64,000 bases of DNA from Armatimonadota bacterium (GTDB lineage: Bacteria; Armatimonadota; Fimbriimonadia; Fimbriimonadales; GBS-DC): contig JABWCR010000017.1 of assembly GCA_013359125.1 (NCBI GenBank), positions 1 through 64,000 of the forward strand, in the 5' to 3' direction. Both the position numbers and the translations under genes were made by a program. The notes under the pieces are model-generated. The model saw nothing but the letters and a program-made list of their open reading frames with translations, made no database searches and had not been told where the DNA came from. This document shows positions 25,454 to 57,482 of this stretch, piece by piece (the stretch's first letter is position 1; the number at the start of each line of letters is the position of its first letter).

Positions 25454-26449
25454 ATGCAAAGGGTTGTAACGCTCCCGATGATGGGCCAGACGATGGAAGA
25501 AGGCGTCATCGTCAAGTGGTTCAAGCAGATCGGCGACCGAGTAGAGAAGGGCGATCTGCTCTTTGAAGTTCTTACCGACAAGACCAACATCGAGGTCGAT
25601 TCGACCGAGCAGGGATATTTACGAAAGGTGCTGGTTCCGCTTGAGACAACCGTTCCGGTCGGCGCGCCGATCGCCATCCTGACCGATACAGCGGACGAAC
25701 CGATTGAAGAGACAATCGATCGGAGATTAGCTTCTCCCAGAGCGCGGACGGTGGCTGCCGAGAAAGGCATCGACCTGAGGACGGTCGAAGTTTCCGATGG
25801 TGGCGTAATTCGGGCGTCGCAAGTAGAGGGATTGCAGGGAGCCATTGGGAGCTACTGGCGAAGGCAGACGGCAGAGGCTGTCAGCAGAAGCTGGCGAGAG
25901 GCGCCCCACGTTACCTTGTTCGCCGAGGCAGTAATGCCGAATGAGACGGGCGTGTTAGCTCGGATCGCACAAGCCTGCGGAAGGGCGTTGGCGCAAATGC
26001 CCGAGATAAACGTCCGATGGAGCGGGCAGGGCATTGTGCCGTTCGACGAGGTCAACGTCGGCCTGGCGGTCGCATTGGACGACGGTCTGGCCGTTGCGAG
26101 CCTTGTCGAGCCGCACAGATCGGAAACCATCAAGGTCGAGTCGGAGATCAAACGACTGGCGGAACTCGCCAGGCAGAACAAACTAGGTCCAAACGATACC
26201 CAACCGGCCGCGATAACGGTTTCCAATCTCGGAGCGTTTGGCATCGATGGGTTCACCCCCATCATCACGCCTGGCCAGACGTTCATTCTTGGCGTTGGGG
26301 CACGAAAGCAGCGTCCCATCGTGCTCGATGGGCAGGTCGTCGCGGCTTTCACCGTGCCTCTCAGCCTCTCGTTCGACCATCGGGCTGTGGACGGCGTGCC
26401 AGCCGCCCGCCTGTTGGGTTTGATCAAACTGGGGCTTGAGGAAGAATGA
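25454..26449 (+). CDS. 2-oxoacid dehydrogenase E2 component (lipoyl acyltransferase)
   Basis: A 331-residue E2: one lipoyl domain (lipoylated K43 in LTDKTNIEV), a peripheral-subunit-binding domain near 85-125 (ASPRARTVAAEKGIDL), then a catalytic acyltransferase domain ending with H309 in FDHRAVDGVPAARLL. It transfers acyl groups from E1 to CoA in a pyruvate or branched-chain 2-oxoacid dehydrogenase complex. At 331 residues it is shorter than most E2s, with short linkers. E1 and E3 genes are not adjacent. I choose ATG 25454 over an in-frame ATG at 25430 because the latter lies upstream of the TATAAT box. Confidence 0.8.
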   Translation: MQRVVTLPMMGQTMEEGVIVKWFKQIGDRVEKGDLLFEVLTDKTNIEVDSTEQGYLRKVLVPLETTVPVGAPIAILTDTADEPIEETIDRRLASPRARTVAAEKGIDLRTVEVSDGGVIRASQVEGLQGAIGSYWRRQTAEAVSRSWREAPHVTLFAEAVMPNETGVLARIAQACGRALAQMPEINVRWSGQGIVPFDEVNVGLAVALDDGLAVASLVEPHRSETIKVESEIKRLAELARQNKLGPNDTQPAAITVSNLGAFGIDGFTPIITPGQTFILGVGARKQRPIVLDGQVVAAFTVPLSLSFDHRAVDGVPAARLLGLIKLGLEEE

Positions 26450-26474
26450 AGTTTGGCAAATCTCCCCGGCGCTC

Positions 26475-26504
26475 TTGACTTTTCTGCCAAGCATCGTTCA
26501 TAAT
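26475..26504 (+). promoter_or_regulatory. Promoter of the ribosomal operon: TTGACT-N18-CATAAT
   Basis: TTGACT (26475-26480) and CATAAT (26499-26504) with an 18-nt spacer, just downstream of the E2 gene. Transcription would start near 26511 and leave a leader of about 250 nt before rpsL. Confidence 0.65.
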
Positions 26505-26510
26505 TCCGTT

Positions 26511-26761
26511 TCGCTGATCGGCTTTGCCGGTCGGCGCCGTCCGTGCGCAAGCGCGGAGCGTTGGGCAGCTGGGGCCGTAATAGCATACACAACCCGATGC
26601 CAAGACAAAAAATGCCCGGAAGGGGTCAAGGTTGGAGGAGGCGGAACGCGAGCCGAAACAGGCTCGATAAGGGATAACCCTGAAGCGCTCCAGAGCAAAT
26701 CGCGCCCCTCCGCCGCCGATGCAGCGAGGGGTTTTTTGTTATCAGTCGCAAGGAGAATCGA
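26511..26761 (+). other. Long structured 5' leader of the rpsL operon
   Basis: No gene is apparent in these 250 nt. A perfect hairpin, CGAGCC (26649-26654)/GGCTCG (26661-26666), is followed by a small GGG/CCC hairpin, then a terminator (26705-26737), then AAGGAG before rpsL. GGCGGA (26640-26645) can pair with TCCGCC (26709-26714), which overlaps the terminator's 5' arm. Two exclusive folds are therefore possible. I infer transcription attenuation. The ligand is unknown, and I recognise no known riboswitch, T-box or SRP RNA. Confidence 0.5.
26705..26737 (+). terminator. Terminator hairpin inside the rpsL leader (candidate attenuator)
   Basis: CCCCTC (26705-26710) pairs with GAGGGG (26726-26731), followed directly by TTTTTT (26732-26737). 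It lies downstream of the operon promoter and 24 nt before ATG 26762, so unregulated termination would silence the whole operon. Confidence 0.7.
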
Positions 26762-27160
26762 ATGCCGACCATCAATCAACTGGTGCGCAAAAAGAGAAAG
26801 CCGAAACCGGTGAAGTCAAAGTCGCCGGCGCTTCGCAACAACCCGCAAAAGCGCGGCGTCTGCACCATCGTGCGGACGATGACGCCCAAGAAGCCAAACT
26901 CGGCATTGCGCAAAGTCGCTCGCGTGAGATTGACCAACGGCACCGAGGTAACCGCCTATATCCCCGGCATTGGACATAATCTTCAAGAGCACTCCGTCGT
27001 TCTGGTTCGAGGCGGAAGAGTGAAAGACCTTCCCGGCGTCCGCTACCACATTGTTCGAGGCACGCTCGATTGTTCTGGCGTAGAAAATCAATCGACCACG
27101 CGCGATCAGGATCGACGACGGCAGGGGCGATCCAAGTACGGCTCCAAGAGGCCCAAGTAA
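26762..27160 (+). CDS. rpsL: Ribosomal protein S12
   Basis: 132 residues, decoding-centre protein of the 30S subunit. The streptomycin loop is conserved ([19 protein letters not shown]), as is [11 protein letters not shown]. The C-terminal tail ([15 protein letters not shown]) is usual. AAGGAG precedes ATG 26762. First gene of the ribosomal operon, behind a leader with a terminator hairpin. The lysine and proline at the classical resistance positions look wild type. Confidence 0.97.
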
Positions 27161-27170
27161 GAGGCGATTT

Positions 27171-27644
27171 ATGGCGAGAAAAGGACAGATCCCGAAGAGA
27201 CAAGTACTGCCCGACCCAGTGCACAACAGCGAGATGTTGGCGCGCTTCATCAATCGCGTTATGCGCGGCGGAAAGAAAAGCGTCGCGGAGCGCATGGTCT
27301 ATACCGCGCTGAGCATGGTGGAAGAGAAGGCCGGCAAGCCCGCTATCGAGGTTTTTGACACCGCAATGGCCAATATCTCCCCCCAGGTCGAGGTTCGACC
27401 CAGGCGCGTCGGCGGCCAGACGTACCAAGTGCCGATCGAAGTGACGCCCAGCCGAAAGCGCGCGCTCGCCATGCGCTGGCTGGCTGCGTCCGTTCAAAAG
27501 AAAAAGTCAGGTCGCACGGCGGCCAGCCGATTAGCGCAGGAGCTTTTGGACGCATTCAATAAGACCGGCGCCGCCTACAAGAAGAGGGAAGACACCCACA
27601 AAATGGCCGAGGCCAATCGCGCCTTCGCTCATTACCGGTGGTAA
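27171..27644 (+). CDS. rpsG: Ribosomal protein S7
   Basis: 157 residues. S7 nucleates assembly of the 30S head and contacts tRNA in the E site. Typical sequences are visible: FINRVMRGGKKSVAERMVY, VEVRPRRVGGQTYQVP, RKRALAMRWL, and a C-terminal HKMAEANRAFAHYRW. It begins 10 nt after rpsL. The order rpsL-rpsG-fusA is the classical str operon. Confidence 0.97.
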   Translation: MARKGQIPKRQVLPDPVHNSEMLARFINRVMRGGKKSVAERMVYTALSMVEEKAGKPAIEVFDTAMANISPQVEVRPRRVGGQTYQVPIEVTPSRKRALAMRWLAASVQKKKSGRTAASRLAQELLDAFNKTGAAYKKREDTHKMAEANRAFAHYRW

Positions 27645-27660
27645 TCATTAGGAACCGATC

Positions 27661-29757
27661 ATGCCAAGAACCGCTCCGTTAGAGAAAGTCAGGAACATTG
27701 GGATTGCCGCGCATATCGATGCGGGCAAAACGACCACTACTGAGCGGATCCTCTACTACACCGGGCGAATCCACCGAGTCGGAGAGGTGCACGACGGCTC
27801 TGCCACCATGGACTGGATGGAGCAGGAGCAAGAGCGCGGGATCACGATCACTTCGGCCGCGACGACCTGCGATTGGAACGGCCACCGAATCAACATCATC
27901 GATACTCCCGGCCACGTGGACTTTACGGTCGAGGTCGAACGATCGATGCGCGTGCTGGACGGCGCCGTCGCCATTTTCTGCGCGGTGGGCGGCGTTCAGC
28001 CCCAGTCCGAAACGGTTTGGCGCCAGGCGAATCGCTACAAAGTGCCTCGCATGTGCTACGTCAACAAGATGGACCGGCTCGGCGCCGACTTCTACAAGGT
28101 CGTCGAGCGGATCGTCGACCGCCTGGGCTCGCGCGCGGTGCCGATTCAACTCCCGATAGGCGCGGAGAGCGAGTTTGCGGGCATTATCGACCTGATCACG
28201 ATGCGAGCGTTTTTCTATCGCGACGATCAAGGCAACCAGATTGACGAGACCGACATCCCGGCGGATATGGCGGGCCTGGCAAGCGAGTGGCGCGACAAGA
28301 TGCTCGAGGCCTGCGCCGAAATGGACGACGCGGTCATGGAGAAGTACCTTGAAGGCGCGGAACTGACCGTTGAAGAGATCAAGCGATGCTTGCGCAAGGG
28401 CACATGCGAACTTAAGATTGTGCCTGTCGTCTGCGGCTCCAGTTTTAAGAACAAAGGCGTTCAGCCTCTGCTCGACGCGGTCATCGATTACCTTCCGTCT
28501 CCATTAGATGTCGAGGAAGTCAAAGGCGTTCATCCCAAGACCGGGGAAGAAGTGGTTCGACGTCCCGCGGACGACGAGCCGGCCTGCGCGCTGGCCTTTA
28601 AGATACAGACCGATCCGTTCGTCGGCAAGCTGACCTATATTCGCGTCTATTCGGGCGTGATCAAGAAAGGCTCCTACATCTATAACGCGACCAAGAACGA
28701 GCGCGAGCGCGTGGCGCGCATCCTGCAAATGCACGCCAATCGTCGCGAAGATTTGGAGGAAGCGAACGCCGGCGACATCGTCGGCGTTATCGGCTTTACC
28801 TCGACGACCACGGGCGATACGCTCTGCCCTGAAAGTCATCCGATGCTGTTGGAGCCGCCGCAATTCCCCGAACCCGTCATTTCCATCGCAATCGAGCCGA
28901 AAACCAAATCCGACCAGGACAAACTGACCAACGCCCTTCAGAGACTTGCCGCAGAAGACCCGACTTTCCGACTTTCTACCGATCACGAGACCGGGCAGAC
29001 TCTCATCTCGGGCATGGGCGAGCTGCACCTGGAGATCATTCTCGACCGACTTCAGCGCGAGTTCAGCGTATTGGCCAACCAGGGCCGGCCCCAAGTCGCG
29101 TACAAAGAGACGATCCGGACTCTGGCCAAGGCGGAAGGCAAGTTCGTTCGACAGTCCGGCGGCAAGGGCCAATACGGCCATGTCGTCCTGCAGGTCGAAC
29201 CCAACGAGCCGGGCGCCGGGTACAAGTTTCATAACAAGGTCGTCGGCGGCGCAATCCCGAGAGAGTTCTTTAACCCGATCGAGGCGGGCATCAAGGAAGC
29301 TTTGGAGACCGGAGTCGTTGCAGGCTACCCGATGGTCGACGTGGTCGTAACCCTGCTCGACGGATCGTATCACGATGTGGACTCGAGCGAAATGGCCTTC
29401 AAGATCGCCGGTTCGATGGGTCTCAAAGCGGCTGCTCAGCGCGCTAATCCGGTTCTCTTAGAGCCTTACATGGCGCTTGAAGTCACCGCGCCCGAGACGA
29501 ATGTAGGCGACGTCATGGGAGACTTGAACGCCCGACGAGCTCGAATCGAGGGCATCGAGCCCGGTCCGGGCAACATACAGATCATAAAAGCCGTTGTGCC
29601 GCTCGCAGAGATGTTTGGCTATGCCACCGCCGTTCGGTCGCTCTCGCAGGGTCGGGCGACCTATGTGCTGCACCCATCCCACTATGAGGAGGCGCCGCCG
29701 CACGTGGCGCAGGCCGTTACCGAAAGGAACGCGACCCTGCAACCGGTTGGCCGCTAA
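27661..29757 (+). CDS. fusA: Elongation factor G (canonical)
   Basis: 698 residues, the GTPase that drives translocation and, with RRF, ribosome recycling. G1 is [15 protein letters not shown], switch II is [15 protein letters not shown] with the catalytic histidine in place, and [10 protein letters not shown] is G4. Domains II-V follow, with the domain IV loop region ([13 protein letters not shown]) conserved. Length is standard. This is the housekeeping copy; compare the paralog at 36440-38527. The gene after it should be tuf in a classical str operon but is rpsJ. Confidence 0.97.
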
Positions 29758-29784
29758 GTCCCAAGGAAGGCAACGAGGAAGCAT

Positions 29785-30093
29785 ATGAAGCGCGACAAAA
29801 TCAGAATCAGACTCAGGGCGTACGACTTTCGAGTGCTCGACGAATCGGTCAAGCGCATCGTCGATCAGGTTGTTCGGAGCGGCGCCCGAATCAAAGGTCC
29901 GGTGCCGTTGCCGACCGACATTCGACGCTTCTGCGTGATCCGAGGCCCGCACATCGACAAGATCGGGATGGAGCACTTCGAAGTGCGCACCCACAAGCGA
30001 TTGATCGACATTGTAGAACCGACCAACCGCACCATCGACGCGCTGATGAGGCTCGATCTTCCAAGCGGCGTCGATATCGAGATCAAACTTTAA
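29785..30093 (+). CDS. rpsJ: Ribosomal protein S10 / NusE
   Basis: 102 residues. A 30S head protein that also joins NusB in antitermination. Motifs [40 protein letters not shown] and [11 protein letters not shown] are typical. It starts the S10 cluster 27 nt after fusA with AAGGAAGG-type ribosome-site sequence upstream. No promoter or tuf gene separates the str and S10 parts. Confidence 0.97.
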
Positions 30094-30104
30094 CGGAGAG
30101 ACCT

Positions 30105-30737
30105 ATGATAGGCGGACTGATAGGACGAAAGTTAGGGATGACGCAAATCTTCGATGAAGCGGGGCGCTATGTGCCGGTTACGGTCATCGAGGTTGGTCCG
30201 TGCTTCGTCACCCAGCTTCGCACGGCAGAGCGCGACGGCTACTCGGCCGTTCAACTCGGCTTTGGCGCGATGAAGAAGAATCGGCTGACCAAGCCGAAGG
30301 CCGGGCACCTGGAGAAGGCTGGTCTGAAGGACAAGCCGGTGCGAAAGTTGGCCGAGTTTCCGACCCTAGGCGCAGAGTTGGAGCTAGGGCAGCAGATTCG
30401 GGCCGAAGATGTGTTCCAGCCGGGCGACGTGATCAAAGTTACAGGCACGAGCAAGGGCAAAGGCTTTGCAGGCGTCGTGAAGCGATATCATCACCACGGC
30501 GGACCGATGACTCATGGCTCGATGACCCACCGCCGACCTCTATCGAGCGGCGCGACGGGGCCTCAAAGAGTTATGAAAAACCACAACATGCCAGGCCGAA
30601 TGGGCGCCGAGACGACCACTCAGCCTTCTGTAACGGTGGTTCGAGTGGACGCCGAGCGCAATCTGGTCTTGATCAAGGGCGCTGCGCCGGGCGGCAACAA
30701 CGGTATCGTCTACCTTTGGAAGGCGCGGCGAGACTAA
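30105..30737 (+). CDS. rplC: Ribosomal protein L3
   Basis: 210 residues. An early 50S assembly protein near the peptidyl transferase centre. Recognised by MIGGLIGRKLGMTQIF at the start, TGTSKGKGFAGVVKRY, and GRMGAETTTQPSVTVV near the methylation-site glutamine of other bacteria. It begins 11 nt after rpsJ in the conserved S10 order. Confidence 0.96.
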   Translation: MIGGLIGRKLGMTQIFDEAGRYVPVTVIEVGPCFVTQLRTAERDGYSAVQLGFGAMKKNRLTKPKAGHLEKAGLKDKPVRKLAEFPTLGAELELGQQIRAEDVFQPGDVIKVTGTSKGKGFAGVVKRYHHHGGPMTHGSMTHRRPLSSGATGPQRVMKNHNMPGRMGAETTTQPSVTVVRVDAERNLVLIKGAAPGGNNGIVYLWKARRD

Positions 30738-30771
30738 ACGAGTTAGAGAGAGAGAACGGAGCATAAGGACC

Positions 30772-31401
30772 ATGCCAACGATAAAACTGCACGGAGCGGA
30801 CGGTAAAGAGAGCGGCAATCTCAAACTGGACGATAAGCTTTTTGGCCTCGAACCAAACGTGGCCGTCATGCATCGCAAAATGGTGGCCGAGCGCAACAAT
30901 GCCCGAGTAGGGTCGCACGATACGCTGACTCGCGCCGAGGTCGCTGGCGGCGGCAAGAAGCCTTGGAAGCAAAAGCATACCGGCCGCGCGCGGCACGGCT
31001 CGTTCCGCTCTCCAATCTTTAGGCACGGCGGTATCGCTCATGGGCCCCATCCGCGAAGCTACGCGCAAGACGTGAACAAGAAGGAGAAGCGACTGGCATT
31101 GCAGAGCGCCCTTTCGGCGCGCATCGCCGATGGCAGCGTCGTCGCGGTTAAAAACATCCCGATCACCGAGATCAAGACCAAAGCCGCGGCCGAGTTCTTA
31201 ACAACAATGGGCGCCGGAGGTCAAAAAACCCTCGTCTTGATCGAAAGCCCAGACGCTGTCTTGCTGAAGTCTTTCAGGAATCTGCCGGGAGTCGTCGTGA
31301 GGACGGCGCCGGCTTTTTCTTTGATCGATGTGTTGGACGCAGAGCGCATTATCGCGACGGAGCAGGCGCTCAAGAACACCGAGGAGGTCTGGTCGAAATG
31401 A
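30772..31401 (+). CDS. rplD: Ribosomal protein L4
   Basis: 209 residues. It lines the exit tunnel with an extended loop, visible here as GGGKKPWKQKHTGRARHGS followed by SPIFRHGGIAHGP. In some bacteria L4 represses its own S10 operon; nothing here shows that. The stop overlaps the rplW start by 4 nt (ATGA), so the two are translationally coupled. Confidence 0.96.
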   Translation: MPTIKLHGADGKESGNLKLDDKLFGLEPNVAVMHRKMVAERNNARVGSHDTLTRAEVAGGGKKPWKQKHTGRARHGSFRSPIFRHGGIAHGPHPRSYAQDVNKKEKRLALQSALSARIADGSVVAVKNIPITEIKTKAAAEFLTTMGAGGQKTLVLIESPDAVLLKSFRNLPGVVVRTAPAFSLIDVLDAERIIATEQALKNTEEVWSK

Positions 31402-31691
31402 AAGCCCTGAGCGACGTGCTTATTCGCCCGCTGATCACCGAAAAGGGCACCAATCAGACCGCGGATCACAACCAGTATGCATTCGAGGTCGCCTCCGACG
31501 CCACGAAGATCGACATCGCGAACGCGGTGCGACAAGTCTACAAGGTGCAGGTTGTCAAGGTGCAGACCCTGTGGGTCAAGGGGCGTCCAAAGCGACTGGC
31601 CTCTCAACGCAGGATGGGACGCACATCGAACTGGAAGAAAGCCGTTGTGCGCTTGGCGCCCGGACAACAGATCTCGGACGCGACGCAATAG
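31398..31691 (+). CDS. rplW: Ribosomal protein L23
   Basis: 97 residues. It sits at the tunnel exit and docks trigger factor and SRP. Typical segments: IRPLITEKGT, YAFEVASDATKIDIANAV and VWVKGRPKRL-like text. The start ATG overlaps the rplD stop (ATGA). Confidence 0.95.
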   Translation: MKALSDVLIRPLITEKGTNQTADHNQYAFEVASDATKIDIANAVRQVYKVQVVKVQTLWVKGRPKRLASQRRMGRTSNWKKAVVRLAPGQQISDATQ

Positions 31692-31709
31692 CCTGACGGA
31701 GAATAGAAA

Positions 31710-32537
31710 ATGCCGACCAAACAGTGGAAACCGACATCGCCGGGCCGAAGGTTTATGATAACCTCTTCGTTCGAGGATATCACGACCGACGAGCCCGAAA
31801 AGAGCCTGACCATCGGCCTCAGGAAGACCGGGGGCCGAAACAATCAAGGCCGCAAAACCGCACGAAACCGCGGCGGCGGGCACAAGAGGCTCTATCGGAT
31901 CATCGATTTTAAGCGCAATAAGGAGAACGTGCCGGGCAAGGTCGCCGAGATCGAGTACGATCCGAACCGCTCGTCCCGCATTGCGCTGATCCACTATGCA
32001 GACGGCGAAAAACGGTACATCTTAGCGCCGGTCGGTCTGTCGCAGGGCGACACAGTGGTCAGTTCGACGGAGGCAGACATCAAGCCGGGCAATGCGCTGC
32101 CGTTGCGCAACATCCCGGTCGGCACGGTCGTTCACAATATCGAATTGACGGTCGGCAAGGGCGGTCAGATCGTTCGGAGCGCAGGGTCGTCTGCTCAGAT
32201 TGTGGCAAAGGAAGGCAACTACGCGCAGATTCGCCTGCCCAGCGGCGAGAACCGCTTAGTTCACCTACAGTGCCGAGCCTCGATCGGGCAGGTAGGCAAT
32301 GTGGATCATGAGAACGAATCGTGGGGCAAGGCCGGTAAGAGCCGATGGAAGGGCCGCAAGCCCAAGGTTCGCGGATCGGCCATGACCCCCAGAGACCATC
32401 CGCACGGCGGCGGAGAGGGCAAGACGGGCGTCGGAATGAAGCATCCCAAGACGCCGTGGGGCAAGCCTGCCATGGGCGTCAAAACGCGCAAGAACAAGCG
32501 CACCGACAAGTTTATCGTTAGAAGGCGCGAGAAGTAA
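31710..32537 (+). CDS. rplB: Ribosomal protein L2
   Basis: 275 residues. Needed for subunit joining and peptidyl transferase function. The C-terminal signature [19 protein letters not shown] contains the conserved histidine important for activity, and [19 protein letters not shown] is the N-terminal RNA-binding stretch. Standard length and position. Confidence 0.97.
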
Positions 32538-32549
32538 TCTGGAGGCAAG

Positions 32550-32834
32550 ATGGGACGCTCACTGAAAAAAGGGCCTTTCGTCGATGAAAAGCTGATGGAC
32601 CGCGTTCGATCGATGAACGCCAGCAACGACAAACGGCCGATCAAGACTTGGTCCAGACGCAGCACGATCGTGCCGGAAATGATCGGGCATACGTTCAACG
32701 TGCACGACGGGCGCAAGCATGTGCCGGTTTATGTTTCAGAACAGATGATCGGGCACAAGTTAGGCGAGTTTGTGCCCACCCGAACGTTTCGCAGCCACCC
32801 GGGCGGAAGCGAAAGAACCAGCCGGGTTAGGTAA
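32550..32834 (+). CDS. rpsS: Ribosomal protein S19
   Basis: 94 residues. Head protein of the 30S subunit paired with S13. It starts [15 protein letters not shown] and has the [20 protein letters not shown] block and the [12 protein letters not shown] end region. It lies 12 nt after rplB with a GGAGG ribosome site. Confidence 0.97.
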
Positions 32835-32861
32835 CCAAGAGATCAAACGAGGAGCAACGAG

Positions 32862-33203
32862 ATGTCAGTGAGAGCAACGGCAAAGAATGTGAAGATACCG
32901 GCGACCAAAGCAAGGCTCGTGGTCGACCTGGTAAGGGGCAAGCCGGTGGACGAGGCTCGCGCCATCCTGGCCAGCCTGCCCAACAAAGCCGCGCGCCTAA
33001 CGGCCAAAGTGCTGGAATCGGCGGCCGCCAATGCCGCCAACACTCACAATCTTGACCCCGACCGCCTCTTTGTTTCACGGGCCTTCGTCGACGAAGGCCT
33101 GGTGATGAAGCGCATTCAACCGAAAGATCGCGGTCGGGCGTTCCGCATCCTTAAGCGCTCCAGCCACATCACGCTCTACGTAGACGAAGCGGGGGGACGC
33201 TAA
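32862..33203 (+). CDS. rplV: Ribosomal protein L22
   Basis: 113 residues. Its beta-hairpin reaches into the exit tunnel. Recognised by KVRLVVDLVRGK-like text (KARLVVDLVRGKPVDEA), the ANAANTHNLDPDRL segment and the hairpin region KRIQPKDRGRAFRILKR. ATG 32862 follows GAGGAGCAACGAG. Confidence 0.95.
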   Translation: MSVRATAKNVKIPATKARLVVDLVRGKPVDEARAILASLPNKAARLTAKVLESAAANAANTHNLDPDRLFVSRAFVDEGLVMKRIQPKDRGRAFRILKRSSHITLYVDEAGGR

Positions 33204-33206
33204 GCT

Positions 33207-34088
33207 ATGGGACAGAAAATTCATCCGGTCGGCTTCCGGGTCGGCATCACGAGAGACTGGGACAGCCGCTGGTTCGCCCCCAAGAAGCAGTACGGCGCAA
33301 ACGTCTATGAGGATTACACTATACGCAAGGCGATCAAGACCAAGTACTACAGTTCGGGCGTGTCGCGCATCGAGATCGAGCGCGCGGTTGCGGCGCTGAA
33401 GGTGATCGTGTACGCTCAACGGCCCGGCCAACTGATCGGTCGAGGCGGCAAAGGCATCGAAGAGATCACCCAGATGATCGCCCGTATCGTCAAGCCCAAC
33501 AGCCCGGAGACTCGGGTTCAAGTCGATATTCAAGACGTGCGACAGCCAGAAACCGACGCCCAACTCTTAGCGGAGAACATTGCCACGCAGCTCGAAAAAC
33601 GAATTTCCCATCGACGAGCCATTCGACAGACCATGACCCGAGCGCAGCGCAATAACGTAAAGGGCATCCGAGTCGCCGTTGCCGGACGACTGAACGGCGC
33701 AGAGATCGCAAGGCGCGAATGGGACCGCAACGGCCGCGTTCCGCTTCACACCCTTAGGGCCGACATCGACTTTGGCCAAGCGATCGCGTACACGATTTTT
33801 GGCACCGTCGGTGTCAAGGTCTGGGTCTATAAAGGAGAAGTGCCCCGAACGCGAGGATTCCACGAGGCGCTTCGCGGCGTGAGCGACGTGGACGAAAACC
33901 GAAGAACAGAAAGAACGAGAGCGCCCAAGCGAAGCGCGGGCGGCCGGACGAAGGCGGAAGGCGGCGCGCCAAGACCCCGGCGAGGGGCAACCGCGGCTCC
34001 GGCAGAAGAAGCGCCCGTAACCGAGACCGCTCCGATGCCCGAGCCAGTAGCGGAGCCAACGCCAGTTAGTGAACCCAGCAGCGAATAA
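33207..34088 (+). CDS. rpsC: Ribosomal protein S3 with long C-terminal extension
   Basis: 293 residues, against roughly 210-240 in most bacteria. The core is normal: MGQKIHPVGFRVGI at the start, a KH domain with GQLIGRGGKGIEEI, and EWDRNGRVPLHTLRADIDF. From about residue 225 a low-complexity tail rich in R, A, P and E runs to the end (PRRGATAAPAEEAPV, EPVAEPTPVSEPS). Such tails are common in Armatimonadota-like and some other phyla and are probably disordered. The start is 3 nt after rplV. Confidence 0.95.
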   Translation: MGQKIHPVGFRVGITRDWDSRWFAPKKQYGANVYEDYTIRKAIKTKYYSSGVSRIEIERAVAALKVIVYAQRPGQLIGRGGKGIEEITQMIARIVKPNSPETRVQVDIQDVRQPETDAQLLAENIATQLEKRISHRRAIRQTMTRAQRNNVKGIRVAVAGRLNGAEIARREWDRNGRVPLHTLRADIDFGQAIAYTIFGTVGVKVWVYKGEVPRTRGFHEALRGVSDVDENRRTERTRAPKRSAGGRTKAEGGAPRPRRGATAAPAEEAPVTETAPMPEPVAEPTPVSEPSSE

Positions 34089-34106
34089 GCAAGAGGCCAG
34101 AACGAT

Positions 34107-34565
34107 ATGTTAATGCCAAAGAGACTAAAGCATAGAAAGCACCACCGAGGACGCATGAAAGGCGTCGCCAAAGGCGCTACCGAAGTCCATTTCGGGCAGT
34201 GGGGCATTCAGGCGCTCGAGCCATGCTGGCTGACGAACCGTCAGATGGAGGCGGCGCGCGTCGCCATCGTTCGACATCTGCGCCGAGGCGGAAAGATCAC
34301 GTTTCGCATCTTTCCCGACAAACCTTACACCAAGCGGGCCGCAGAGACGCGAATGGGGTCTGGAAAGGGCAGCGTGGAGGGTTGGGTGGCCGTGGTCAAG
34401 CGCGGCCGGATCATCTTGGAATTGGCCGGCGTTCCCGAAGCGGACGCGATGGAAGCGTTGCGTCGAGCCTGTCATAAGCTTCCGATCAAGACAAAGATTG
34501 TGGGACGGCTGGATGTCAGCGCCCATGCTGCAAAGGAGGTCAAGGATGAGAGCGACGAAAGCTAA
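34107..34565 (+). CDS. rplP: Ribosomal protein L16
   Basis: 152 residues. It binds near the A-site tRNA. Typical parts: [53 protein letters not shown] and the KLPIKTKIV end. ATG 34107 is preceded by AGAGG; ATG 34113 is an alternative. The C-terminal ~12 residues form an acidic tail encoded where the gene overlaps rpmC by 20 nt. Confidence 0.95.
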
Positions 34566-34752
34566 AGACTACCGATCGATGGCTTACAACGACCTCTTGG
34601 AAGAGTTAGAGGACAAGAAAAAGGCGCTCTATCGTTTGCGCGTACAGGTGAGCCTGATGCAGATGAAGGATACGGCCAGTCTGAACTATGCCAAAAAGGA
34701 CATCGCGCGGATCATGACCGTCATTAACGAGAAGCAGCGCGAGCAGGCGTAA
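34546..34752 (+). CDS. rpmC: Ribosomal protein L29
   Basis: 68 residues, two-helix protein at the tunnel exit. The text [20 protein letters not shown] followed by [16 protein letters not shown] and [13 protein letters not shown] is typical. ATG 34546 has a good AAAGGAGGT site and lies inside the end of rplP (20-nt overlap). The longer open frame upstream is antisense-free but has no ribosome site. Confidence 0.93.
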
Positions 34753-34764
34753 GGAAAAGAGGAA

Positions 34765-35058
34765 ATGAGCGAAAAGGAAACTCGAACCCTAGAAGAGGCT
34801 GGCGAGTACGCGGGCAAGAAAAAGACCCGCATCGGTCGCGTCGTCAGCGACAAGATGGACAAAACGGTCGTCGTGCTGATCGAGCGGACGATGCGACACC
34901 CCATCTATCACAAAACCGTGCGCCGATCCACCAAGTATCAAGCGCACAGCGAAAACAACGATTGCCATGTGGGCGATCTGGTCGAAATAGTTGAGACGAG
35001 GCCCATGAGCCGCCACAAGAGGTGGCGCGTGCGGGCCGTTATCGAGAAGGCAAAGTAA
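34765..35058 (+). CDS. rpsQ: Ribosomal protein S17 with N-terminal extension
   Basis: 97 residues. The core begins at [20 protein letters not shown], preceded by about 17 extra, mostly acidic residues ([17 protein letters not shown]). The OB-fold motifs [17 protein letters not shown] and [19 protein letters not shown] are normal. A GGAAAAGAGG stretch precedes ATG 34765, supporting the extended start. Confidence 0.93.
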
Positions 35059-35078
35059 GAAAGGCTAGGTGAACGACA

Positions 35079-35447
35079 ATGGTACAGCAATATTCCCGGT
35101 TGCGCGTGGCGGACAATTCCGGCGCTCGCGAGGTGTTAGTCATCCGCGTTATGAAGGGCTCCAACGCCCGATATGGCGGCGTGGGCGACATCATCGTGGC
35201 GGCGGTCAAGGATGCCGCGCCTAATATGCCGGTGAAGAAGGGCGAAGTGGTCAAGGCCGTCATCGTAAGGACCAAGCACGTCATCAAGCGGCCCGACGGC
35301 ACCAGTTTGCGGTTTGACGACAACGCCTGCGTGCTGATCAACCCGGCCTTAGAGCCGAGAGGCACTCGCATCTTCGGCCCCGTCGCAAGAGAGCTGCGCG
35401 AGAGGAACTTCATGCGAATCGTCTCGCTCGCTCCCGAGGTGCTTTGA
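35079..35447 (+). CDS. rplN: Ribosomal protein L14
   Basis: 122 residues. Intersubunit-bridge protein. It shows [44 protein letters not shown] and [20 protein letters not shown], all standard. First gene of the spc part, 20 nt after rpsQ, with no separate promoter evident. Confidence 0.97.
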
Positions 35448-35449
35448 CA

Positions 35450-35806
35450 ATGATCAAGAAACTGAGCAAGCCGTTAAGAATGAAGATCAAGCGCGGCGAT
35501 ACCGTAACGGTCATCGCTGGCAAAGACAAAGGCAAACAGGGCAAAGTGCTGCGCGTTCTGCCGACCGTCAATCGCGTCGTCGTCGAAGGCGTGAACATGG
35601 TAACCAAGCACAAGAAGAAAGTTCCGACGGCCAAAGGCGCTCAGGAGTTCGGACGCTTTCAGATGCCCGCGCCGCTGCACGCCAGCAACCTGATGGTGGT
35701 GGATAAGGATACGGGCAAACCGACGAGAGTGCGCCGAGCCCGAAACGCCGAGGGCAAACTGGTGCGCGTTTCAAAGGCCGGTCAGATATTGGACGCGGAG
35801 TCGTAA
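35450..35806 (+). CDS. rplX: Ribosomal protein L24
   Basis: 118 residues. An assembly initiator with the KOW motif visible in [20 protein letters not shown]. The tail reads [20 protein letters not shown] 35450 is 2 nt after the rplN stop, with GAGG about 9 nt upstream inside rplN. An in-frame TTG at 35444 overlapping the stop is less likely. Confidence 0.94.
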
Positions 35807-35821
35807 TCGAGGCGATAAAGA

Positions 35822-36439
35822 ATGGCAAAGAAAGAAACGCAAGAGAAAAAGCAGAAGGGCGCCGCGGTCGCAGAGGGGCGCGCGCAGGCGGGCTTCGAAA
35901 CCCAGTTAAAAAAGCGATACGCCACCGAGATCGCGCCAGAGCTGGCCAAACAGTTCAACCTGGCTAACCCGATGGAGATCCCGAAACTGACCAAAGTCGT
36001 GCTGAACATGGGCGTCGGCGAGGGCGAAAAAGACTCCAAGCAACTGGACAACGCCGTGCGCGAGATGACCATCATCTCGGCTCAAAAGCCGGTCGTAACG
36101 GTTGCCAAGAAGCCAATCTCGAACTTCAAGATTCGCGAAAACTACAAGATCGGTTGCAAAGTAACGCTGCGAGGCGACCGAATGTACGTCTTTTTGGAGA
36201 AGCTGATCAACATCGTGCTGCCGCGCATACGCGACTTCAACGGCGTCTCGCCCAAGTCGTTCGACGGCCGGGGCAACTACTCTCTAGGGGTTAAGGAGCA
36301 GATCATCTTCCCCGAGATCGTATACGACGAAATCGACCGAGCGCGAGGCATGGACATCACGATCTGTACCTCGGCGCGCACCGACGAGATGGCTTACGCG
36401 CTGCTAAAACAACTGGGAATGCCCTTCAGAGAGCGATAA
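35822..36439 (+). CDS. rplE: Ribosomal protein L5 with N-terminal extension
   Basis: 205 residues, against about 180 in most bacteria. Roughly 25 lysine- and alanine-rich residues ([19 protein letters not shown]) precede the core that starts at [17 protein letters not shown]. Conserved parts include [46 protein letters not shown] and [15 protein letters not shown]. Its TAA stop is followed with no gap by the ATG of the second EF-G gene. Confidence 0.95.
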
Positions 36440-38527
36440 ATGAAACCTTATCCTATCGACAACATCCGAAACGTAGCGCTGGTCGGCCATGGCGGCTCGG
36501 GAAAGACGACCCTTGCCGAGCACATCTTGCATCTATCCGGAGCCACGGACAGAATAGGCTCGGTAGAGGCGGGAACCACCGTTTCGGACTTCGATCAGGA
36601 AGAAGTCAAACGCAAGATCAGTTTGAGCGTTTCGGTCCTGCCGGTCGAGTGGGAAGGGAACAAGGTCAACTTGATCGATGTGCCGGGGTTTCCAGACTTT
36701 ATCGGCGACATGTATGGCGCTTTGCGCGTGGTCGATTCGGCGATCATCGTTGCGCCCGCTCAGGCCGACTTGGACGTTGGGTTTGAGAACGCTTGGGAGC
36801 AGTGCGAGGAGCAAGGCTTGCCGCGCTTTGTGTTCGTCAACAAGATGGAGCGCGACAATGCCGACTATCCGGGATTGCTCGCCACCCTGCAAAGCCTCTA
36901 CGGTCGGAGGATCGTACCGATCCAGATTCCCGTTGGCGCTCAGACCGGTTTCAAAGGCGTGGTCGATTTGCTCCACATGAAGGCTTACGTCGGTCATGAC
37001 AAAGAGGGCGTGGCGACCGAAATCCCGGCAGAATTAGTTGCAGAAGCGACCAACGCGCGCGACGCATTGATCGAGGCCGCCGCCGAATCGGAGGACGATC
37101 TGGCCGCTAAGTATTTGGACGGCATTACGCTGACCGAGGACGAAATTCTGCACGGTCTACAGATGGGCATCAACGCCGGAACGCTGGTTCCGCTGATGGT
37201 CGGGTCGGCCGGCCAAGGCATCGGCACACGACGGTTGCTGGAGACCATCATCGAATTCGCCCCGTCGCCCACGCACCATCGGGCTATCGTGGCTAAAGAC
37301 AAGAACGGCCAAGAGGTCGAATTAGCGCCCGATCCCAATGGCCCTCTCTGCGCGTTCGTCTTCAAAACGACCGCCGATCCTTACGTCGGCAAGCTGACCT
37401 ACTTCCGCGTTTTCTCGGGCACTTTCCACGGCGATTCGACGGTCTACAACTCGCGCAAGGAGCGCGACGAGCGCATCGGCCAAGTCTACTATATTCGAGG
37501 CAAGAACCAAGTCGCAACGCCCGGGATACCGGCGGGCGACATTGCCGCAACGGCCAAGCTACAGGAAACCAGCACGGGCGACACGCTGGGCGACAAGGCG
37601 AAACCGTTGACCTTAGAGCCAGTCCACTTTCCCGATCCGATCTATCAGGTCGCCATCGCCGCCAAATCAAAGGCCGACGAAGACAAAATGGGCCCGGCCT
37701 TGGCGCGCCTGCACGAAGAGGACCCGACGCTGCACGTGCGCCGCGACCCCGAAACGCATCAGACGCTGCTCCTAGGCATGGGCGATTTGCATCTCGATAT
37801 CGTGATGGAGAAGCTGAAGCGCAAGTTCAGCGCCGAGGTGGTGTCTGAGGAGTTCCGCATCCCGTTTCGCGAGACCGTGGTCGGCTCGGCCAAAGCGCAA
37901 GGCAAGTTCAAGCGTCAGAGCGGCGGTCGCGGCCAATACGGCGACTGTTGGATCGAGCTAGAGGCCTTGCCGCGCGGATCGGGCATCGAGTTTGGCGAGA
38001 AGATCGTCGGTGGCGCGATACCGAAGAACTACATACCTTCGATCGAAAAGGGCATCCGAGAAACAGCCGAAAAAGGCCTTATCGCAGGCTATCCTTTGGT
38101 CGACTTTAAGGCGGTCGTATACGACGGCTCCTATCACGACGTCGACTCGTCTGACGCTGCATTTAGGATGGCGGGCAACATGGCGCTCAAGGCTGCCAGC
38201 GAGAAAACGGGCGTTGTGATGTTAGAGCCGGAGTTGGAAGTGGAAATCAGCGTGCCCGACGCGTACACTGGCGACGTGATGGGCGATATGAACGGTCGCA
38301 GGGGCCGCATCCTTGGCATGGAGCCGGCCGGTAAGGGAAGGCAAACGGTTCGCGCCATTGTGCCAATGGCCGAGATGCTAAAATATGCGCTCGAACTGAG
38401 ATCGATCACTCGTGGGCGCGGGCGATTTAAGACTAAGCTTGCGGGCTACACCGAAATGCCGCACAATGTCGCGGCCCCGCTGATCGAGAAAGCCAAAAAA
38501 GAGCGCGAAGCGCAACAGGATCATTAG
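36440..38527 (+). CDS. EF-G paralog (EF-G2-like GTPase) embedded in the spc operon
   Basis: 695 residues with the complete EF-G domain order. G1 reads GHGGSGKTTLAEHIL instead of HIDAGKTT. Switch II reads DVPGFPDFIGD, so the histidine that activates water in EF-G and EF-Tu is replaced by phenylalanine. NKMERDNAD is G4. Domain IV keeps [13 protein letters not shown]. These changes mark the EF-G2-like group known from Thermus and others, whose role is unsettled; it is not a TetM-type protection protein. The ATG abuts the rplE stop and rpsN follows 20 nt later, so it must be co-transcribed with ribosomal genes. Confidence 0.9.
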   Translation: MKPYPIDNIRNVALVGHGGSGKTTLAEHILHLSGATDRIGSVEAGTTVSDFDQEEVKRKISLSVSVLPVEWEGNKVNLIDVPGFPDFIGDMYGALRVVDSAIIVAPAQADLDVGFENAWEQCEEQGLPRFVFVNKMERDNADYPGLLATLQSLYGRRIVPIQIPVGAQTGFKGVVDLLHMKAYVGHDKEGVATEIPAELVAEATNARDALIEAAAESEDDLAAKYLDGITLTEDEILHGLQMGINAGTLVPLMVGSAGQGIGTRRLLETIIEFAPSPTHHRAIVAKDKNGQEVELAPDPNGPLCAFVFKTTADPYVGKLTYFRVFSGTFHGDSTVYNSRKERDERIGQVYYIRGKNQVATPGIPAGDIAATAKLQETSTGDTLGDKAKPLTLEPVHFPDPIYQVAIAAKSKADEDKMGPALARLHEEDPTLHVRRDPETHQTLLLGMGDLHLDIVMEKLKRKFSAEVVSEEFRIPFRETVVGSAKAQGKFKRQSGGRGQYGDCWIELEALPRGSGIEFGEKIVGGAIPKNYIPSIEKGIRETAEKGLIAGYPLVDFKAVVYDGSYHDVDSSDAAFRMAGNMALKAASEKTGVVMLEPELEVEISVPDAYTGDVMGDMNGRRGRILGMEPAGKGRQTVRAIVPMAEMLKYALELRSITRGRGRFKTKLAGYTEMPHNVAAPLIEKAKKEREAQQDH

Positions 38528-38547
38528 AGGAACAGAGAGGACGATAA

Positions 38548-38733
38548 ATGGCCAAAACCACGTGGATTGTCAAAGCTCGACTAAAGCCAAAGTATTCGAC
38601 CCGCAAGGTCAACCGGTGCAACGTTTGCGGGCGGCGGCACGGCTACATTCGTTTCTTTAGCCTTTGCCGAATCTGCCTGCGCGAAATGGCGCACAGGGGC
38701 CTGTTGCCCGGCGTCAAGAAGTCGAGCTGGTAA
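38548..38733 (+). CDS. rpsN: Ribosomal protein S14, zinc-binding type Z
   Basis: 61 residues. Two CxxC pairs ([10 protein letters not shown] and CRICLREMA) bind zinc, placing it in the short C+ class. The ending [17 protein letters not shown] is typical. A GAGGACG sequence precedes ATG 38548. Confidence 0.96.
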
Positions 38734-38747
38734 GGAGCGCAAAAGAA

Positions 38748-39143
38748 ATGATGACTGACCCTATAGCCGATATGCTCACCCGACTGCGAAACGCGGCGCG
38801 GGCCGAAATGCCCAGCGTCAGCATGCCGCATAGCGCGGCAAAAGAGCGTTTGGCGAACGTACTGAAAGAGGAAGGCTTTGTGCGAGCCGTCAACGTGGAT
38901 CGCAGCAAGCAGTTTCCAATCTTGCAGATCGCGCTGCAATACGGCAAGAACGGCGATTGCGCCATCGCTCACATCGAACGAGTGAGCAAACCCGGACGCC
39001 GGATCTATCGAGATGTAAAAGGGCTTAGACCCGTTCGGCGCGGCTTGGGTAGCGCGATCGTATCGACCTCGCAAGGCCTTATGCCAGACCGCGAGTGCCG
39101 CAAGCGAAACATAGGCGGCGAGGTTGTCTGCATCCTCTGGTAG
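38748..39143 (+). CDS. rpsH: Ribosomal protein S8
   Basis: 131 residues. Central-domain 30S assembly protein. It starts MMTDPIADMLTRLRNAARA and ends with the conserved GSAIVSTSQGLMPDREC..NIGGEVVCILW. Two ATGs stand in tandem (38748 and 38751); AAGGAGCG lies 9-12 nt upstream. The longer frame from 38664 is within rpsN and rejected. Confidence 0.95.
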   Translation: MMTDPIADMLTRLRNAARAEMPSVSMPHSAAKERLANVLKEEGFVRAVNVDRSKQFPILQIALQYGKNGDCAIAHIERVSKPGRRIYRDVKGLRPVRRGLGSAIVSTSQGLMPDRECRKRNIGGEVVCILW

Positions 39144-39172
39144 GCCGAAAGACGAATTAGGAGAAAAAGACC

Positions 39173-39736
39173 ATGTCAAGAATAGGCAAAGCGCCCATAA
39201 CAGTGCCGAACGGCGTAGAGATCAAGGTCGATGGCCTTGCTGTAACCGTCAAGGGGCCAAAAGGGCAACTGAGCCACGACTTGCCCGAAACGATCACCCT
39301 CGAGCAGCAGAACGGTACGCTTCATGTCAAGCGGCAAGACGACGAGCGCAATAATCGATGCCAGCACGGCTTACAGCGCACGCTTATCAACAACATGGTT
39401 CAAGGCGTTAGCGAGGGCTTCGAAAAGGCGCTCGAGATCGTTGGCGTCGGCTATCGCGCCTCGATGGAGGGCCCGACGCTGGTGCTGCAGATCGGCTTCT
39501 CGCACTTGGTCAAGGTGCCGCCTATGGAGGGCATTTCCTTTGAGCTGGCGCAGGACCCTCAGTCCAAGAACGGTCTAATACTGGTGCGCGGCATCGACAA
39601 GCAGCGCGTCGGTCAGCAAGCCGCCGACATCCGAGCCATCCGCCCGCCGGACGCTTATAAAGGCAAGGGCATCCGATACAAAGGCGAGGTCATCAAGACC
39701 AAGGCCGGAAAGAGCGCGATCGGAGCCAAGAAGTAG
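39173..39736 (+). CDS. rplF: Ribosomal protein L6
   Basis: 187 residues. Two related alpha/beta domains, with MSRIGKAPITVPNGVEIKV at the start and the signature near the C-terminus (RAIRPPDAYKGKGIRYKGEVI). It is the last ribosomal gene here. In most bacteria rplR, rpsE, rpmD, rplO and secY follow; here greA follows with its own -10 box, so the cluster has been broken. Confidence 0.96.
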   Translation: MSRIGKAPITVPNGVEIKVDGLAVTVKGPKGQLSHDLPETITLEQQNGTLHVKRQDDERNNRCQHGLQRTLINNMVQGVSEGFEKALEIVGVGYRASMEGPTLVLQIGFSHLVKVPPMEGISFELAQDPQSKNGLILVRGIDKQRVGQQAADIRAIRPPDAYKGKGIRYKGEVIKTKAGKSAIGAKK

Positions 39737-39753
39737 CCGCGTCGGCAATAGGG

Positions 39754-39759
39754 TATAGT
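39754..39759 (+). promoter_or_regulatory. Candidate -10 box (TATAGT) of greA
   Basis: TATAGT lies between rplF and greA and would give a leader of about 33 nt. No convincing -35 box is visible, so greA may also be read through from the ribosomal operon. Confidence 0.4.
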
Positions 39760-39798
39760 ATCTGACCATTCGTTCCTGGCTGACTGCCGGAGACTCCT

Positions 39799-40278
39799 AT
39801 GAAAGACGACCCCAAACTCTATCTGACAGAAGAAGGCTATCGAGCATTAGAAGCGGAACTAAAGCAACTGACCACCGTTGAAAGACATCGAGTGGCCGAT
39901 CAGTTTCGAGAGTATAAAGAACATGGCGAAACAGGCGACGAGGCCGAGTTCGAGAGCCTCAAGAGCCAGCAAGCGATGCTTGAGTCCCGGATACACGACG
40001 TAAAGGCCATTCTGGCTCGGGCCACCGTGGTGAAACCGTCCGACGTGCCGACCGACCATGTAAGCGTGGGCTGTTTGGTCGAGATCCAAGACGCGGAGAC
40101 CAACAAGAAGCAGAAAGTGCAGGTGGTCGGCGCTGCAGAGGCGGACCCGCTAAAGGGACGGATCTCCTACCTGGCGCCGCTCGGCGAGGCGCTGATGGGT
40201 AGAAAAAAGGGCGATTCCGTGGACGTTAAACTGCCGCACGGACGCGCCCGTTACAAGGTGCTCAAGATTTCGAAGTAG
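39799..40278 (+). CDS. greA: Transcription elongation factor GreA
   Basis: 159 residues. It rescues backtracked RNA polymerase by stimulating transcript cleavage. The N-terminal coiled coil carries the acidic tip in GETGDEAEFESLKSQQ, and the C-terminal FKBP-like domain includes ISYLAPLGEALMGRKKGDSV. The spacing and length match GreA rather than GreB. It sits right after the ribosomal operon and converges on a secreted-protein gene with only 3 nt between stops. Confidence 0.95.
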   Translation: MKDDPKLYLTEEGYRALEAELKQLTTVERHRVADQFREYKEHGETGDEAEFESLKSQQAMLESRIHDVKAILARATVVKPSDVPTDHVSVGCLVEIQDAETNKKQKVQVVGAAEADPLKGRISYLAPLGEALMGRKKGDSVDVKLPHGRARYKVLKISK

Positions 40279-40281
40279 CCC

Positions 40282-41406
40282 TTAGATGCTGTCTCCCGCC
40301 TTGCCAAAGTTCGACAGCACGATCGCCAAATCCAAGTCGTCGACCACGCCGTTGCCCGTTATGTCGGCGTCAACGTTGTTGGTGCCAAATCGGGTTAGAA
40401 TGCGCGACAGATCGGTGTCGTCGATGAGGTTGTCGTCGACCGAATCGCCGTTGACAAGCGGAAAATCGATGTTCAGCGTTCCGCCCGAAAGGCTTGCGCC
40501 GACCGTCCTTCGCAGCCCAGAACCCATCTTTGTGCTGACCAACACCGCGCCATTGATCTGGGTCGAAAGCGTGTAACTTCCGTCGGCGGCCAGCGTTACG
40601 GTGTGGTTTTCCGTTGTTGCGCCTTGCTTGATGGTGACAACGGCCTGGCGGTTTTGATAGGAGGCCTGATAGCCCTCTAGAGTCAGCCGCCCCGAGATCT
40701 GAGTAGCCGGCAAATCGGGCGCGCCATAAAGGCTAAAGAAGAATCCCGCATGAATGGCCCCAAAATAGTATGCGTCGTACTGCGTACCGTTCCACTGCAC
40801 GAAGTAATCCAGGTTCGCATCGCCTTGAGCCGTCGCCCAGGCGCCAGGCGAGGTAACTTGCACGCCCAAATAGCAACTGAAGTAGTCGTCCTCGATTCTT
40901 CCGCACTGTACGGTGAAGACGTTGGACATGGTGTTCGTGCGCAAGCGCCAGACGCCCGATTGAGGCACATAGAGCACGTGGGGCCCTCGATTGCTTCCAT
41001 TAAACGTCTGCGGCTCCCCGATCGGCTCGGGCGGAAAGTCGCCCGTGGCCGGCGCATAGAAGCCCTGAATCGTGTAAAAGCCCGGATTCGGAAAATAAAT
41101 CCCGATATCCACCTGACTGATTCGAAATCGGCCAACGCCGGATGGATCCATCGACTGGTTGATCAGCACGTCGTCCAAGACGATGGCGCTGCCGCCTTCA
41201 TAAGCGTAGTTGGTCGCAATCTCGTGATAATAAAGGCGAGAATCCTGCACTCGCGCGCCGGTCCAGTTGATAATCGGCTTCTCAAAGGGGTTTGAAACAG
41301 CATCGGCCATAAGAGCCTTCGAATCGATGCGTTCTATCAACTGCCAGCCTTGCCCGAAGCCAGCCGCCGTTACAAACGCGCTCAAAAGCAGTCCGATCTT
41401 CCGCAT
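40282..41406 (-). CDS. Secreted protein with C-terminal dockerin-like module
   Basis: 374 residues after a signal peptide (MRKIGLLLSAFVTAAGFGQG). The first ~210 residues are a beta-rich domain I do not recognise. Residues ~225-310 resemble a carboxypeptidase-regulatory/Ig-like fold (SGRLTLEGYQASYQNRQA). The end carries two calcium-loop repeats, VDDNLIDDTDLSRILTRFG and ITGNGVVDDLDLAIVLSNFG. I choose ATG 41406: the AGGAGG site touches the ATG at 41415 and is correctly spaced only for 41406. A TAGAAT box (minus strand, 41439-41434) lies upstream. Confidence 0.7.
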   Translation of the reverse strand: MRKIGLLLSAFVTAAGFGQGWQLIERIDSKALMADAVSNPFEKPIINWTGARVQDSRLYYHEIATNYAYEGGSAIVLDDVLINQSMDPSGVGRFRISQVDIGIYFPNPGFYTIQGFYAPATGDFPPEPIGEPQTFNGSNRGPHVLYVPQSGVWRLRTNTMSNVFTVQCGRIEDDYFSCYLGVQVTSPGAWATAQGDANLDYFVQWNGTQYDAYYFGAIHAGFFFSLYGAPDLPATQISGRLTLEGYQASYQNRQAVVTIKQGATTENHTVTLAADGSYTLSTQINGAVLVSTKMGSGLRRTVGASLSGGTLNIDFPLVNGDSVDDNLIDDTDLSRILTRFGTNNVDADITGNGVVDDLDLAIVLSNFGKAGDSI

Positions 41407-41455
41407 TTGGTTCATCCTCCTCGGTTTGGTAATATTCTAACCTGTTTTTTGACGA

Positions 41456-57478: not shown

Positions 57479-57482
57479 GGAT

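Follow-up and report, generated by a model that had tools for sequence, protein, structure and literature searches.

Why would a bacterium carry a second elongation factor G (EF-G) gene in the middle of an operon for ribosomal proteins, and what might the product do there? The 64,000-nucleotide stretch analyzed here (the window) contains a standard ribosomal-protein cluster on its + strand, with rpsL, rpsG, and fusA followed by rpsJ to rplF. The canonical fusA gene (positions 27661 to 29757; TIGR00484, 1,123 bits) lies after rpsL and rpsG and before rpsJ. An EF-G paralog of 695 amino acids (EF-G2; 36440 to 38527), recognized by its open reading frame and its profile and domain matches, separates rplE for ribosomal protein L5 (35822 to 36439; NCBIfam NF000585, 282.7 bits) from rpsN for type Z S14 (38548 to 38733; NF005974, 99.4 bits). 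The TAA stop codon of rplE ends at 36439 and the ATG of EF-G2 begins at 36440, leaving a gap of zero, just as an earlier note on this DNA had reported. Downstream of rpsN, the order continues with rpsH (S8; 38748 to 39143, start read from the sequence), rplF (L6; 39173 to 39736), and greA, all on the + strand. These two genes, fusA and EF-G2, encode the two full-length EF-Gs of the genome, and their products share ∼40% identity. All five EF-G domains were found in EF-G2 with Pfam, and its best NCBIfam model is NF009381 (904 bits, with TIGR00484 scoring 670 bits).

The operon has two further peculiarities. The spc portion is shortened (39737 to 41415), with greA after rplF and then a gene on the opposite strand; in three relatives (L119, L131, and L157), L18, S5, L30, L15, and SecY come after L6. 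The interval between fusA and rpsJ (29758 to 29784) lacks tuf, so that the str and S10 clusters abut.

From rplE to rpsN, no terminator-like sites were found on the + strand, and the two promoter-like sites were no excess over shuffled sequences (mean, 1.7), so nothing argues against a single transcript. An Rfam scan of positions 26000 to 41000 gave no matches to regulatory RNAs. The codon adaptation value of EF-G2 (0.678) compares with 0.695 for EF-G, 0.617 to 0.745 for the ribosomal proteins, and a background mean of 0.635, and 5 of 30 background genes exceed it. Codon usage gives weak backing to a plausible link between EF-G2 and ribosome production.

Judged by its sequence characters, EF-G2 belongs to the EFG II family. 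The tables of Margus, Remm, and Tenson 2011 (PMC3150367) mark EFG II positions in 1WDT numbering, and we could map 11 of them through our alignment. Eight agree exactly, namely, Gly16, Leu25, and Ser61 (G16, L25, and S61 in the window protein) and Thr291, Leu264, Lys471, Glu513, and Gly603 (T310, L266, K491, E536, and G626). A ninth, Lys472, corresponds to Arg492, which keeps the charge with a different residue. Asp216 and Val250 are replaced by E218 and L252; according to the same tables, these two are conserved in 88% and 90% of EFG II and are thus tendencies rather than absolute marks. EFG II proteins also occur as the second EF-G of a genome, as here beside the canonical fusA. In the accessible text of that paper, a conserved context (the str operon) is given for EFG I, and an S10-spc placement is not among the contexts described for EFG II. 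Other models fit less well: the Bacteroides-type EF-G2 model NF058620 (582.5 bits) and the EF-G-like EF-G2 equivalog NF009377 (698 bits) stay below their cutoffs of 1,000 and 890. A tetracycline ribosomal protection protein was rejected on the same grounds (NF012153, 311 bits; cutoff, 775).

We next compared the active site with that of canonical EF-G. EF-G2 shares with the latter (EFG I, fusA) the five domains, the domain IV tips, and coencoding with ribosomal proteins, which for EFG I is in the str operon. Canonical sequences invariably have His in switch II, Asp in the P-loop, Thr in G2, and Asp in G4 (18 of 18 and 27 of 27), whereas all four positions are altered in the EF-G2 of the window. 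The G1 motif, or P-loop, reads GHGGSGKTT (36485 to 36511), with G19 at the Asp position. In G2 (switch I), KRKISLS (36608 to 36628) replaces ERGITIT, exchanging Thr for Ser and leaving RKISL for the canonical RGITI. G3 (switch II) reads DVPGFPDF (36677 to 36700), with Phe84 in place of the catalytic His of canonical EF-G, and G4 is NKME (36839 to 36850) rather than NKMD. The degenerate G2 with Ser, together with a relaxed GTPase domain and a conserved domain IV, is a common trait of EFG II.

The earlier note had singled out the PGF and GHGGSGKTT motifs of this gene. Both are present as described, but they turned out to be general features of EF-G2 rather than peculiarities of the window copy. 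Tyr or Phe replaces the switch II His in 74/74 copies from the window's insertion site (site B, defined below), 41/45 from a second site (site A), and 19/19 other Armatimonadota copies. The same holds for 69 of 72 other named EF-G2s (after setting aside 8 named loci that are Armatimonadota), for 29 of 30 loci in the phylum of L054 and G255 (Candidatus Aquidulcis; taken as Chloroflexota), and, by reading the printed motifs, for 30 of 30 loci in the phylum of L042. An active-site change peculiar to the window protein is thereby excluded. The P-loop Asp is gone from all EF-G2s in the alignment examined.

EF-G2 probably retains nucleotide binding, because none of 210 EF-G2s has lost the P-loop Lys or the Asp or Gly of DxPG. 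Classical catalysis is changed, and guanine specificity is loosening, since a strict NKxD motif is often lost (present in 25/74 site B, 26/45 site A, 1/19 other Armatimonadota, and 56/72 named copies). The G5 motif is badly degenerate in site A proteins (e.g., L195 to L220), with SA in 12 of 45 versus 59 of 74 at site B, hinting that nucleotide binding may erode further in those families. The His change alone does not prove a dead GTPase, because Thermus thermophilus EF-G-2 (PDB 1WDT/2DY1), with the same Gly and Tyr changes, is reported to hydrolyze GTP. That protein resembles the window EF-G2 in its Gly-type P-loop (GHAGSGKTT) and aromatic switch II (DAPGYGDF) but is shorter, at 665 amino acids, and it scores 451.6 bits against the window EF-G2, far below the 615 bits of canonical Thermus EF-G.

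Domain IV shows a different distribution of constraint. It is the part of EF-G that enters the decoding site, and its tip residues, Gln499 in the loop SGGRGQYGDCW (37919 to 37951) and His566 in a second loop (38126 to 38164), are present in 209 of 210 EF-G2s. We calculated mean pairwise identities across 27 genomes (351 pairs), comprising the window and 26 site B relatives (30 were searched, and 4 without a canonical EF-G at 1e-200 were dropped). In the G domain, identity was 70.8% for EF-G versus 49.9% for EF-G2, while in domain IV it was 64.4% versus 65.3%. For 14 genomes, mostly with site A (91 pairs), the corresponding values were 63.9% versus 45.6% in the G domain and 55.0% versus 63.8% in domain IV. 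The GTPase domain of EF-G2 is relaxed, and its domain IV is as conserved as that of EF-G. This pattern points to an action of EF-G2 in the decoding site. A relaxed GTPase domain combined with a conserved domain IV was described as general in EFG II in the available text of Margus, Remm, and Tenson 2011 (PMC3150367); the constraint on domain IV is therefore a trait of the family, confirmed here for a new phylum.

To establish how widespread the placement is, we searched 251 Armatimonadota genomes with EF-G2 and with L5. Matches to both were in hand for 226 genomes; 22 were without an EF-G match (8 with none at 1e-100 and 14 outside the EF-G matches listed), and 3 were without an L5 match. We defined site B as EF-G2 directly after rplE and site A as EF-G2 300 to 1,500 bases before rplE. 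By coordinates, 80 of the 226 genomes have site B, with the order rplE, EF-G2, and rpsN as in the window, and 56 have site A, for which the order rpsQ, EF-G2, and rplN was read in fetched loci. One further genome (G144) has EF-G2 2.3 kb downstream of rplE, and 89 fall elsewhere under the coordinate rule. Direct reading of gene order placed one of these 89 (G090) at site A and one of the three genomes without an L5 match (G134) at site B, and in G088, EF-G2 heads rpsN-rpsH-rplF. Of 44 family groups, 39 carry EF-G2 within the S10-spc operon, 18 at site B and 21 at site A. No group has both sites, and five have neither (f2, f5, f8, f16, and f19). The recurrence of this gene order across the phylum in separate assemblies exceeds chance, and an assembly artifact is excluded by the identical rplE-EF-G2 junction in many of them. 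The survey proposed in the earlier note thus disposes of the concern that the arrangement is unique to one assembly. Its further idea, that EF-G2 dosage is tied to ribosome production, becomes plausible because the gene sits in the operon in 39 of 44 groups and no terminator-like site interrupts the window locus; codon usage adds weakly to it.

In G144 (f16; contig C622, 2446 to 7384), rplE and EF-G2 lie ∼2.3 kb apart with other DNA between them, an arrangement that is perhaps an intermediate in relocation of the gene.

How the gene reached two positions in one operon was addressed with trees of 102 and 68 EF-Gs. In both, all EF-G2s split from canonical EF-G (SH-aLRT, 100), site A sequences form one group (SH-aLRT, 90 and 96, respectively), and most site B sequences form another (SH-aLRT, 99 and 98). 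The site B sequences of f17 fall apart from this main group, near f5, and the position of EF-G2s from other phyla, between A and B, is weakly supported. Holding all Armatimonadota EF-G2s as one clade was not rejected (AU P = 0.47 and 0.31). A host tree of ribosomal proteins shows two changes of site, with site B nested among site A families. Either a single entry was followed by movement within the operon, or there were two or three separate entries.

Outside the phylum, we found no convincing case of EF-G2 inside the S10-spc operon among the loci surveyed, which were the best-scoring ones only, with flanks of 1.5 kb (for named loci, as much as 5 kb), so that rarer cases may escape. None of 103 loci had ribosomal-protein neighbors (73 named loci, L042 to L114, of which L045 and L069 are of the Fimbriimonadaceae type, and 30 from the phylum of G255). 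In the phylum of G251, 1 of 30 loci had such a neighbor, but this S3 match scores 38 bits, lies on the opposite strand, and looks spurious. Our partial coverage of the literature on EF-G or fusA2 in spc or other ribosomal-protein operons, including those of Armatimonadetes, likewise turned up no report.

Within the phylum, the gene is not confined to the operon. EF-G2 lies outside it in f2, f5, and f8 and in three of nine f1 genomes. Family f2 belongs to the same order as the window genome, of which it is the most sampled family, and in its 59 genomes, EF-G2 is found outside the operon. Seven of the 59 (97 to 100% complete) have a single EF-G match with ∼40% identity, the level of the canonical protein. 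The lone EF-G was confirmed as canonical by sequence in G216 (f2), G013 (f16), G062 (f25), and G017 (f19), and in the remaining f2 genomes its canonical identity rests on percent identity. In G062, which is a single 7.6-Mb contig, the rplE-rpsN junction has no insert, and EF-G2 is apparently missing in several near-complete Armatimonadota genomes. EF-G2 is useful but not indispensable, because f2 keeps it elsewhere and 7 of 59 f2 genomes show only the canonical gene. Around four relocated loci, the neighbors identified with Pfam were a carbamoyl-phosphate synthase-like protein, a thioesterase, a proton pyrophosphatase, and a tetratricopeptide repeat (TPR) protein; no translation genes were found by Pfam among the 10 neighbors at these loci, 6 of which had no match.

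The function of EF-G2 cannot be read from its sequence, because the characterized members of the family differ. In the portions of the cited papers available to us, T. thermophilus EF-G-2 binds and hydrolyzes GTP and is active in poly(Phe) synthesis (PMC3150367 and PMC3832671, which disagree on its intrinsic activity), ribosome-dependent GTPase activity was not seen for Mycobacterium smegmatis EF-G2 (PMC3832671), and Bacteroides EF-G2 enables GTP-independent translation (PMC10294740). The Bacteroides protein (fusA2) is likewise a second EF-G, nonessential in culture and with unusual GTP dependence. In contrast to the operon-embedded gene, fusA2 has its own promoter, is induced in starvation by Cur/BT4338, and goes from low expression in growth to a 238-fold increase on carbon limitation (PMC10294740 and PMC6989115), which is the opposite regulatory logic. 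The placement suggests that Armatimonadota EF-G2 is made with ribosomes and not reserved for stress. The basic, nonstress role favored in the earlier note would agree with this reversal of the Bacteroides pattern, but the relocations and losses in f2 speak against any indispensable one.

With moderate confidence, we propose that, early in the evolution of this phylum, an EFG II gene joined the S10-spc operon and that its product would be made with ribosomes, in proportion to their number, as an auxiliary translocase-like factor. EF-G2 would bind GTP and insert domain IV into the A site as EF-G does, supporting the canonical protein on the ordinary ribosome pool, with GTP hydrolysis that may be slow or differently triggered. 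A division of labor in which canonical EF-G translocates and EF-G2, with ribosome recycling factor, splits posttermination ribosomes in the manner of EF-G2mt and Borrelia EF-G2 seems unlikely to us. Such split-function pairs are known (PMC3832671, in its available text), demand for recycling scales with ribosome number in keeping with the operon, and a weakened GTPase center could be enough for splitting. EF-G2, however, bears EFG II marks rather than an spdEFG assignment, the catalytic residues of canonical EF-G are intact in all 27 genomes with nothing to show that recycling was given up, and the strong conservation of the domain IV tips is explained no less well by translocation-like insertion into the A site. 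We also think it rather unlikely that EF-G2 is a slow, GTP-sparing factor for times of scarce GTP, with the operon providing only a basal supply. The lost switch II His in the EF-G2s examined and the eroded guanine-specificity motif (NKxD) would suit such a role, as would the GTP-independent translation permitted by the Bacteroides protein (PMC10294740). Yet fusA2 is starvation induced, whereas expression of the main ribosomal-protein operon should fall in starvation, and Thermus EF-G-2, with its His-to-Tyr change, is reported to hydrolyze GTP.

Eukaryotic EFL1 offers an analogy for a factor that test-drives new ribosomes. A maturation or quality-check role of this kind, with one factor needed per new ribosome, would accord with coencoding at two sites across the phylum and with a conserved domain IV beside a modified GTPase center, but at the loci surveyed, EFG II homologs of other phyla are not in ribosomal-protein operons, and we hold this role to be improbable. 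More improbable still is a frozen accident, in which an old insertion was inherited without functional coupling as ribosomal-protein operons rarely rearrange. Deep inheritance alone can yield wide occurrence, and each site is largely one clade, but the at least two site changes on the host tree stayed within the same operon, which inertia alone predicts poorly; one shared origin is not rejected by the AU tests, so that one entry or several would fit. Beyond the auxiliary translocase that we prefer, EF-G2 might be a constitutive companion needed for each new ribosome, acting mainly by inserting domain IV and hardly depending on rapid GTP hydrolysis. We regard this as rather doubtful; if true, EF-G2 would be a second dedicated or maturation-checking translocase, unlike any characterized EF-G paralog.

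The Thermus, mycobacterial, and Bacteroides assays conflict over the purpose of EFG II, and a phylum that keeps the gene at two sites of its main ribosomal-protein operon gives a strong hint that it serves ordinary ribosomes there. The organisms with embedded genes identified here are ones in which deletion, ribosome profiling, and structures could address that role, and the constrained domain IV set against the relaxed GTPase domain bears on how far EF-G depends on GTP hydrolysis.

We also considered whether EF-G2 could be the sole EF-G of single-match genomes. Searching 19 genomes with one match using canonical EF-G revealed clear canonical fragments in 9 (G141, G006, G057, G007, G075, G021, G175, G109, and G038), many at contig edges, and a short one in G239. 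In the rest (e.g., G240, 95% complete), EF-G2 was accompanied at most by GTPase matches that were weaker and shorter. The fragments speak against the sole-EF-G reading, and the other genomes were treated as presumed assembly gaps. In G038 (f28; contig C57, ∼56631 to 58599), canonical EF-G lies in three adjacent pieces while EF-G2 is intact, reflecting either sequencing errors or a decaying fusA. Finally, a record titled Methanoregulaceae archaeon (JADZEW010000008.1; L037) carries a bacterial EF-G2 of the Fimbriimonadaceae type, and it looks as if either the title is wrong or the bin is mixed.
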